Shown here one piece after another: positions 1 through 43,663 of a DNA stretch of 43,663 nucleotides. The notes under the pieces are model-generated. The model made no database searches. It was not told the origin of the DNA and saw only the letters and a list, made by a program, of their open reading frames with translations. The stretch is from a bacterium (GTDB lineage: Bacteria; Cyanobacteriota; Vampirovibrionia; Gastranaerophilales; Gastranaerophilaceae): positions 1 to 43,663 of the forward strand of contig JAFUUC010000021.1 of the NCBI GenBank assembly GCA_017471365.1, given 5' to 3'. Positions within the stretch are counted from its first letter, which is position 1; each line of letters opens with the position of its first letter. The translations under genes were made by a program, and so were the position numbers.

Positions 1-448
1 AATAATTAGCCAGGCAAAAGTTCCAACACCGGTAAGTTGTAGTGATTATATAGGTAAATCCGGCTACGAAGCAATCAAAAGCTGCTACTACAATAACAAT
101 AATGACTACTGGGTAGGAGCCATGGTAGAGTGTAAAAATCAGGGTGGCAGATTACCAAACGCCTCTGAACTGGCTAAAATTGCTCAGGCAATATACAATG
201 ACAACTCAATCAGCGAATCGGAAGATTACAACGAAACAGACCCAACAACAAACGAATGGGATAAATCTATCACAGCCAAACTGGGCATAGAAGACTCCGC
301 TTCGTGGTTCGGCCTTTGGGGTGTCCTCGAGGACGACTCGGGCAGTGCGTGGTACCACAACTTCGGCAGTTCGAGTACGGCTTGGTACCACGGCTACGGT
401 CGCGGCAGCGTTCGCACCACTATCCGTGTTGTTTGCGTAGCGGATTAA
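1..448 (+). CDS. Pilin-like protein with hypervariable C-terminus, 5' partial
   Basis: The reading frame is open from base 2, so this is the last 148 codons of a gene that begins outside the window. It matches the C-terminal part of the complete prepilin-like protein at 6427-7563 (shared DYWVGA, GG.LP.A.EL, LW motifs) and is very close to the right-end copy at 43089-43663. The fold is probably C-type-lectin-like, as judged from the Gly-Gly-x-Leu-Pro, Trp and terminal Val-Cys-Val pattern; that is inference. The last 41 codons before the conserved Cys (311-433) are GC-rich and differ strongly from the right-end copy, while the sequences on both sides are almost identical. The gene's stop codon overlaps the stop of the convergent aminotransferase gene by 3 nt. 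The likely role is a surface-exposed, possibly diversified pseudopilin or pilus-tip protein. Confidence 0.8.
   Translation, partial: IISQAKVPTPVSCSDYIGKSGYEAIKSCYYNNNNDYWVGAMVECKNQGGRLPNASELAKIAQAIYNDNSISESEDYNETDPTTNEWDKSITAKLGIEDSASWFGLWGVLEDDSGSAWYHNFGSSSTAWYHGYGRGSVRTTIRVVCVAD
311..433 (+). other. Candidate diversity-generating-retroelement variable region
   Basis: Forty-one codons between a conserved Ser-Trp-Phe and the terminal Cys-Val-Ala-Asp. Aligned with 43104-43223, about 23 of 40 residues differ (for example Gly/Tyr, Val/Asp, His/Arg, Tyr/Arg, His/Cys). Fixed Leu-Trp, Trp, Asn-Phe, Ser-Ser and Trp positions remain between them. Most variable codons end in C or T, and replacements are at first and second positions, as expected when AAC/AAT codons of a template are adenine-mutagenised. 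Several C/T third-base differences show that the two copies are not from one identical template. No reverse transcriptase or template repeat was found in the window. Confidence 0.55.
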
Positions 449-4272: not shown

Positions 4273-6042
4273 TTATGATAATCTTCTTACTATTTCTTGT
4301 GCTTCTTCACAATCTTCAAAAGCTTCCAAAATTGATTCAGCACAATTTATTGCTTCATCTGTTTTGCCATTTTTTTCATAACATTTTGCAAGATTTAGTA
4401 ATACATTTATATTTAACGGTGCTTTCTGCGACAAATTTTTCAAAATAATTTCAGCTTGAGTATAATCTCCAAGTTCAAAATAACAAAGAGCCAAAAGATT
4501 TTGAATATCAGGAGATTTCCCGTGTTCATACGCATTTATCAAAAATTCTTTCGCACGTTGAAATTCTTTTGCAAGATAATAAATTCGACCAGCAATGAAG
4601 AATAAAAAGCTTGAATGAACATGCTGTTCCATAACTTGATCAATTAGATCTTTGGCTTCATTAATTTGTCCAAGGTGCGTTTTATTCAACGCACAAAATG
4701 CTAATGCATTTGGATTGTTCGGTTCCAAATCTATCGACTTTTTATAAAATTCATCAGCTTTTACAAAATCAGAAACAGAATGATAATAATTAGCACATTC
4801 CAAAACTATGGAAAAGTTCTCAGGATCATTATTATAAGCTTGTTCAAATTCTTCTTTTGCATAGTCAAACAGTCTTTTATTTAAATAAATTACTCCCAAA
4901 TCCTTATGTGCAGGTGCAAAATTAGGTTGCAACTTACAAACTTTTTTGAATGTTTGTTCCGCAGTATCAATATCACCTGTCTTTACACACAAAACAGCAT
5001 ATTCATAATAAGTCTGAAAAGATGTAGTACCCTGTTTTATAAGGCTTTCGTAAATATCTTTTGCCTTTGCATAATCTCCAATAATCATGTAAATTGCAGA
5101 AAGTTTTTTCAAAATGTGCTGTGCTTTAGGATTCAATAATGATAACTGTTTTAACAAAGTTAACGCAATTTCGTATTCACCAATTGCTTGATAACATGTT
5201 GCAAGATTATATTTATAACTCGATTTTTGCGGATAAGTCGAAGCTAAATGTTTGTAATGCTCAATAGCTTCTTTCATTTTTCCTGCTTTTACCTCTGAAA
5301 TAGCCCATGCCGAAATGTAGCTATCATCATTAGGTTCGTATTCATGTGCTTTTGCAAAATATTCACATGCTTTTTCATGATCCCCTTGAATTTGCAAAAT
5401 CGAACCCATATTAAAATACGCAAGAGCATCCTCAGGACTCAGTTCAACAGCTTTTTGATAAACTTCAAGAGCTTTATCAAATTCACCTATTGTCAGATAT
5501 GAAGTTCCTAAATTATTGTATAACTGTGCATTTTCAGGGTTAAGTTCTATCGCCCTGCTAAGGTACTTTACACTGCCCTCAAAATTTTTTGCAGCCATAC
5601 AAGCTGTTCCCATAATGAATATTAAAGAATAATCATCCGGAGCTAATTCAAGACCTTTTGCAGCAACTTCACTTGCTTTTTCCGGATTAGATCCTTTTAT
5701 GTAAATAACAGCCAAACTTTTATACGCATCAAGATATTCTGGACGCAGTTTAATAACTTCTTCATACGCGTGTTTTGCTTCGGTTAACATCCCAAGGTTA
5801 TCGTAACAACAACCAAGATAATACCAACATAAAGCATCTTGATTACAATATTTAATAACATCTTCAAGAATTTTTCTGGCTGAATTATAGTCTTCCTTAT
5901 TAATTTTGCAAAGCGAAAGTAACTTTTGTGCCTCAACATCTCTTGGATTTACCTCTAAAATACCTGAGATTATTTCTTCAGCACTGTCAAATTCTGATTT
6001 GTTTATAAGATCATAAATTTTATCAACTTCTGTATTATTCAT
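4273..6042 (-). CDS. Tetratricopeptide-repeat protein
   Basis: A 589-residue protein made almost entirely of about 15 TPR units of 34 residues, with typical pattern such as ALCWYYLGCCYDNLG, NAQLYNNLGTSYLTIG and APAHKDLGVIYLN. No signal peptide, membrane helix or enzymatic domain is visible, so it is probably a cytoplasmic scaffold; its partner is unknown. The ATG at 6042 has no Shine-Dalgarno sequence. An extended -10 (TGTTATAAT) ends 9 nt before it, suggesting a leaderless or 2-nt-leader mRNA. The small HTH gene lies 33 nt upstream on the same strand, but this gene has its own promoter. Confidence 0.85.
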   Translation of the reverse strand: MNNTEVDKIYDLINKSEFDSAEEIISGILEVNPRDVEAQKLLSLCKINKEDYNSARKILEDVIKYCNQDALCWYYLGCCYDNLGMLTEAKHAYEEVIKLRPEYLDAYKSLAVIYIKGSNPEKASEVAAKGLELAPDDYSLIFIMGTACMAAKNFEGSVKYLSRAIELNPENAQLYNNLGTSYLTIGEFDKALEVYQKAVELSPEDALAYFNMGSILQIQGDHEKACEYFAKAHEYEPNDDSYISAWAISEVKAGKMKEAIEHYKHLASTYPQKSSYKYNLATCYQAIGEYEIALTLLKQLSLLNPKAQHILKKLSAIYMIIGDYAKAKDIYESLIKQGTTSFQTYYEYAVLCVKTGDIDTAEQTFKKVCKLQPNFAPAHKDLGVIYLNKRLFDYAKEEFEQAYNNDPENFSIVLECANYYHSVSDFVKADEFYKKSIDLEPNNPNALAFCALNKTHLGQINEAKDLIDQVMEQHVHSSFLFFIAGRIYYLAKEFQRAKEFLINAYEHGKSPDIQNLLALCYFELGDYTQAEIILKNLSQKAPLNINVLLNLAKCYEKNGKTDEAINCAESILEAFEDCEEAQEIVRRLS

Positions 6043-43088: not shown

Positions 43089-43663
43089 TTAATCCGCTAC
43101 ACAAATAACGTGAATAACGCTATCACTGCGGCTACCAAGATTGCAACGCCACTCCGTGTAAGAACTACTGAAATTGCGGTCCCACGAACCGTTCGAGTCG
43201 TTTTCGAGGTCACTCCAAAGGTAGAACCACGAAGCGGAGTCCTCTATGCCCAGTTTTGCAGTAATGGATTTGTCCCAGGTTAATCCGTTTTTGTAATTGT
43301 ATTCTTCCGATTCGCTGATTGAATTGTCGTTGTATATTGCCTGAGCTATATTTGCAAGTTCACTTGCATTTGGTAATCTGCCGCCTTGATTCTTACACTC
43401 AACCATAGCTCCTACCCAGTAGTCATTGTTGTTGTTGAATTCGCATGATTTGATTGCTTCGTAGCCGGATTTTCCAATGTAGTCACTACAACTTACCGGC
43501 GTTGGAACTTTAGCCTGGCTAATTATCTTAACTCCACCTATCTCTATATAAGAATCTTCAAGTTTTGCTCCATTGAAAGAAATAAGGTCGTTTCTTGTGT
43601 GTTCATCGCCACCATACAAGTTTGGTTTTCTGGAGCCATTAAAGTCATAAATACCCGCTACAC
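43089..43663 (-). CDS. Pilin-like protein with hypervariable C-terminus, 5' partial
   Basis: The frame is open to the window edge, so the N-terminus is missing; the upstream codons read AGIYDFNGSRKPNLYGG, which matches the YDLNGSRMPN of the complete paralog at 6427-7563. A TTG at 43619 is internal and not a start. It carries the shared CSDYIGKSGYEAIKSC, NDYWVGAMVECKNQGGRLP and LGIEDSASWF. From there its last 40 codons before the conserved Cys differ sharply from the left-end copy, then both end in CVAD. The protein is probably an exported pseudopilin with a lectin-like head. Confidence 0.8.
   Translation of the reverse strand, partial: VAGIYDFNGSRKPNLYGGDEHTRNDLISFNGAKLEDSYIEIGGVKIISQAKVPTPVSCSDYIGKSGYEAIKSCEFNNNNDYWVGAMVECKNQGGRLPNASELANIAQAIYNDNSISESEEYNYKNGLTWDKSITAKLGIEDSASWFYLWSDLENDSNGSWDRNFSSSYTEWRCNLGSRSDSVIHVICVAD
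43104..43223 (-). other. Candidate variable region of the right-end pilin-like gene
   Basis: Forty codons that align to 311-433 with one codon less. Residues replaced are mostly encoded by NNC or NNT codons. Scaffold residues Leu-Trp, Trp, Asn-Phe, Ser-Ser, Trp, Gly and Val are kept. The bases just before it (conserved 31-nt block with one mismatch) and after it (last 12 coding bases identical) frame the variation sharply. Confidence 0.55.

Follow-up and report, generated by a model that had tools for sequence, protein, structure and literature searches.

Variable cassettes at both ends of a Gastranaerophilales contig are probably VRs of a dispersed, multi-target DGR with templates elsewhere in the genome

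The window, by which we mean the whole 43,663-nt stretch of DNA analysed, spans contig C18 in full; this contig belongs to a draft MAG of 1.8 Mb in 109 contigs, estimated to be 97% complete and 0.08% contaminated. Both of its ends lie within fragments of one prepilin-like family (Table 1), the proteins of which are 76–78% identical to each other. The sequence-only reading had placed a variable cassette at each end; both are real, and the last ~48 codons of each fragment are variable regions (VRs) of a diversity-generating retroelement (DGR), with the stretch 43104–43223 falling within the one on the right. Compared with the sequence described below as template A, the right-end VR is changed at 22 of 50 template adenines and at 15 of 102 other bases, and the left-end VR at 27 of 51 and 11 of 105, respectively. 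The two cassettes are typical rather than the cleanest examples, and several of the 15 non-adenine differences on the right lie near the 3' end. Neither fragment retains its own 5' part; the prepilin motif is seen in full-length copies elsewhere in the genome. The interior family member, 38% identical to the right-end protein, differs from the template at 47% of non-adenine bases and so has no DGR signature left. It may be an old, frozen copy or one that was never targeted.

Table 1. Prepilin-family genes and VRs in the window
Feature	Position	Strand	Remarks
3' part of prepilin-family DGR target gene	43089..43661	-	open 190-aa frame; 5' part removed by contig end
VR of right-end target, template A type	43094..43238 (about)	-	aligned to template A; 6-nt (2-codon) insertion in AAC run
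3' part of second target gene	2..448	+	148-aa frame, cut by other contig end
VR of left-end target, template A type	296..443 (about)	+	aligned to template A; 9-nt (3-codon) insertion
Interior full-length prepilin-family member, 378 aa	6427..7563	+	end matches neither template; N_methyl PF07963 above cut-off

The right-end protein finds 99 matching places in its own genome, very many of them at contig ends. The near-identical 5' parts of the family break short-read assembly, which explains why so many contigs end inside these target genes. Full-length copies (for example L015, L020 and L029) consist of a prepilin leader with the motif FTLAEVLITLAVIGVVAAMTLPTLI, a conserved body and a variable end of ~48 codons, and match the N-terminal cleavage/methylation motif models PF07963 and TIGR02532 above their cut-offs. 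The VR occupies the last ~50 codons of the target frames and is thus 3'-terminal in the gene; fixed and variable codons alternate there, the latter being mainly NNC or NNT. The family comprises subfamilies A and B, which are about 40–47% identical and differ in their fixed frames, although these are alike in style. Within subfamily A, VR lengths differ by whole codons at a run of AAC codons, as seen at both window ends and in L006, L009, L011, L028 and others: the run has four codons in template A and in most VRs, five in six VRs, and six, eight and nine in single VRs. The extra codons are variable too, as if they arose by template slippage or from a longer template. A broken member interrupted by stops was also observed (L097, G000:C105:6168-6571), as was a target 3' end without a body (L203, G000:C57:27751-27903); the latter was considered as a third template and rejected, since its sequence is that of a target end in decay. 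Strong hairpins downstream of targets are likewise not taken as a DGR feature, as they also occur behind members without a DGR signature and look like ordinary terminators.

The binding domain of the target probably adopts the C-type lectin fold that is usual, though not universal, among DGR targets, but this assignment rests on a poor model and the fold is not established. The predicted structure is of low confidence (pLDDT 53.6), and a fold search with it gave nothing significant; on a second look, nearly all matches were C-type lectin domains, but only at Z 2–3. Matches of the target to Lcl_C and Lectin_C fall below cut-off, and a profile search against the PDB returned only a weak match to intimin (E 0.087). 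A 'Poly_A_pol_cat' match of the protein P0001 lies far below cut-off and is taken as chance.

The strongest single evidence for a DGR is that a template predicted from target columns alone was then met at an independent locus. A hypothetical 141-nt sequence was built from 25 relatives with A written at every variable site and was searched against the genome. Its best match, C36:509-647, is identical at 139 of 139 aligned bases and lies upstream of rpoB, at a locus with no long frame on that strand. The same approach applied to subfamily B led to template B at C101:30231-30373 with a 95% match, the leftover mismatches being a stretch that reads AAC-AAC-CCG. Upstream of each template lies a leader RNA, closely similar between the two (GATTGAGTCAGAGCTTGTCAGGCTACGGTTTG-CAGGGTGTACTTTTTCATCTCGTCAT...), a covariance model of which matches only these two in this genome and, across 46 genomes of the genus, one each in G004, G037 and G008. 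A search of Rfam with the leader returned nothing relevant, and with only 13 pairs and seven sequences we make no claim of covariation. About 50 bp downstream of template B lies an intact Avd gene of 113 aa, followed by secA; no Avd is found behind template A. The Avd protein matches bAvd (PF22296) above cut-off and the PHROG family 'Avd protein of DGR' at 3e-22, and its score is under the strict Avd cut-off of NCBIfam (54.7 versus 80 bits). Among its named relatives are those from Candidatus Gastranaerophilales and Scatousia MAGs, 'Fusobacterium sp. CAG:439', rumen-type RUG MAGs and a roe deer reticulum MAG, from which we infer that the source is most likely a host-associated member of the Gastranaerophilales; the bacterium is small and probably animal-associated. 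The template loci, and some of the targets, are flanked by dispersed repeats that contain CCCTCCCTAGTCAGGGAGGG palindromes (L096, about 4700–5750; L094, 1–130) and are possibly involved in the spread of copies.

When the family was listed genome-wide and its ends were aligned with the templates, 58 VRs with fewer than 20% non-adenine mismatches were retained (22 for template A and 36 for template B), and the change observed in them is adenine-specific. Template adenines are changed at 50% (A) and 49% (B) of positions, compared with 7 and 10% for C, 7 and 8% for G, and 3 and 2% for T, respectively. Pooled over the 58 copies, the adenine excess corresponds to odds ratios of 15 and 13 (Fisher p 2e-162 and 7e-257), where the p-values assume independence of sites and should be read as 'very large' effects rather than literally. 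Within AAY codons (AAC/AAT), the first two bases are changed in 311 of 352 and 592 of 676 cases (88%), and the third base is kept in 295 of 311 (95%) and 530 of 592 (90%) of these changed codons, none of which has become a stop. A smooth gradient of divergence along the length of the family members, which would have refuted the cassettes, was looked for and not seen; rather, the codon-position pattern flips at the cassette. Upstream, third positions mostly vary more than positions 1–2, that is, mostly synonymously, whereas inside the cassette positions 1–2 vary most. Adenines in frame codons (TCA, GAG, ACG) are hardly changed, which indicates that selection also acts, and the pattern fits mutagenesis filtered by protein tolerance.

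These observations lead us to a main reading, to which we assign a probability of roughly 85%, that the window-end cassettes are VRs of a dispersed multi-target DGR that diversifies about 58 prepilin-like genes from templates elsewhere. The suggestion that one DGR serves at least two distant targets is thereby supported: the genome has two templates (C36 and C101) and one Avd, and its target loci number at least 58. In the mechanism we propose, the template RNAs A and B would be copied by an error-prone reverse transcriptase (RT) together with Avd, adenines would be misread during copying, and the mutant cDNA would replace the last ~140 bp of any of the roughly 58 scattered genes, so that AAC/AAT-rich templates would turn fixed codons into NNC/NNT and many residues could vary without stops. 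That all copies are reached in trans is an inference, and in the absence of read data present activity has not been shown for this DGR. The most likely output of the system is a pilin-type protein in many versions, with randomised C-terminal residues; the pilin function is untested, and display on type IV pilus-like structures and binding of ligands by the variable end are likewise inferred.

Besides the lack of read data, two points count against the main reading, namely that the assembly contains no RT and that some targets are not accounted for by the known templates. Regarding the second, 15 clear B targets (L123, L127, L132 and L148 among them) carry TCC-GGT-NNC where template B has AAC-AAC-CCG, as opposed to nine with the NNC-NNC-CCG expected from it. 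At least these 15 targets need a third template, predicted to read ...CGCAATAACTCCGGTAACAGGTTCGTTTGC..., which is absent from the assembly, perhaps falling into the same gap as the RT.

Regarding the first point, neither Pfam RVT_1 nor two profiles of related DGR RTs (E<=1, E<=10) detected an RT in this assembly, the genome being an estimated 97% complete. The expectation that RT and template would both lie outside the window has therefore been met for the template, together with Avd, but so far not for the RT. DGR-type RTs, recognised by the motif [IVL]GxxxSQ, are however present in three relatives of the same genus, G004, G037 and G008, all of which have the same template leader. In G004 (RUG12020) and G037 (RUG13924) the RT adjoins a prepilin target, with leader, template and Avd on another contig, whereas in G008 the RT, template and Avd occur together; in Ca. 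Scatousia excrementigallinarum (L212) the RT, a prepilin target, the leader with its template and Avd are all found in one place. Since assembly breaks occur at most target genes, an RT missing from the assembly cannot be equated with one missing from the organism. Indeed, the smallest contig among those examined is 3.2 kb, and an RT situated beside a near-identical repeat, as in G004 and G037, could form a shorter contig below the apparent length cut. We infer that the RT of this organism was probably lost to assembly breaks.

The absence of a detectable RT would also be expected if the cassettes were fossils, written by a DGR whose RT has since been lost from the lineage, such that their differences now reflect only drift. 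Some relatives do look like cases of loss: in G034 (98% complete), 27 family members are present without an RT or a leader, and G045 has about 20 family members and an RT with four stop codons, so that the two genomes are possible stages of DGR loss. Nevertheless, we consider this explanation unlikely, because both templates and an intact Avd remain, because an RT between two near-identical repeats could have escaped assembly as outlined above, and because several targets are nearly free of non-adenine differences (1/102, 2/105 and 3/105), which indicates that writing has been recent relative to ordinary substitution.

A large paralogous pilin family might instead vary without any retroelement, through silent-cassette recombination among paralogues, as in the pilE/pilS system of Neisseria, with surface residues under positive selection. 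At about codons 386–403 of the family A alignment, immediately before the VR, there is indeed a milder second variable patch with a few recurrent alleles (for example YNETDPTANEWDK / NNSYSDRTWDK), the mosaic appearance of which looks like reassortment between paralogues and not like DGR change. Such recombination does not predict, however, that the variable sites coincide with the adenines of a non-coding template locus, that rewritten codons keep a constant third base although synonymous sites nearby drift, or that Avd lies beside a template. It may operate in addition, upstream of the cassette, but is very improbable as the principal origin of the differences within the cassettes.

Least credible of all is an assembly artefact, in which a mixture of strains contributed many alleles of just a few hypervariable loci and these were assembled as separate contig ends: most copies do sit at contig ends in a fragmented, probably metagenomic draft, but several are interior to contigs, contamination is estimated at only 0.08%, and the downstream flank of each copy differs beyond ~200 bp. 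When these flanks (up to 1.1 kb, 93 members) were compared all against all, similarity between any two ended within about 200 bp, except for one split pseudogene; the copies are therefore different genes at separate loci in one genome rather than strain alleles. The short downstream pieces that are shared, of 150–197 bp, hint at how the copies spread.

The dispersed multi-target DGR favoured here is not categorically new, but is an extreme form of a known kind, with far more targets than the best-known DGR systems. Cyanobacterial DGRs with remote variable proteins, comprising 76 remote targets over a set of genomes (PMC7517822), similarly combine one DGR with dispersed paralogous targets that have 3'-terminal VRs, but there C-type-lectin domains are fused to other domains, whereas here a single prepilin-like family provides at least 58 targets in one 1.8-Mb genome. 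The DGRs of Thiohalocapsa PB-PSB1, linked to conflict systems, have 15 target genes over nine loci (PMC10907252) and also include several targets best explained by a template or RT acting in trans; here two found templates account for tens of targets. Should two or three templates serve to write the copies in trans, the number of targets would be several times that of this 15-target genome, which has itself been called exceptional (PMC10907252). Pilins are DGR targets in gut bacteria according to Macadangdang et al. 2024, as far as that work is represented where it is cited (PMC12632263), although the tip pilins of Bacteroides described there belong to Type V pili, in contrast to the type IV-like prepilin proteins of the present system. 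A similar leader, template style, Avd and prepilin target characterise the compact DGR of Ca. Scatousia excrementigallinarum, but its RT, target, template and Avd lie within about 3.4 kb, whereas here the template with Avd, the second template and the targets are scattered. As far as the literature we found allows us to say, the new aspects are how many targets a single genome holds, the separation of the two templates from one another as well as from nearly all targets, and the lineage; our search found no paper joining DGRs with Gastranaerophilales or Melainabacteria, which does not prove that none exists.

We lean modestly towards a more specific form of this reading, in which one dispersed DGR, with its RT, Avd and two or three templates at separate loci, diversifies about 60 pilin-type genes at once in a 1.8-Mb genome. 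The result would be a repertoire spread over the genome instead of one switchable gene, and changes in the length of the AAC run would be a second way of generating variety. Surveys that seek a VR beside an RT would miss a dispersed system such as this one, and a large DGR survey itself states that remote targets are undetectable by it (PMC8144416). The findings raise the testable questions of how far in trans a DGR acts and what singles out a gene for targeting, as well as why a host-associated, non-photosynthetic relative of the cyanobacteria needs a variable pilin repertoire.
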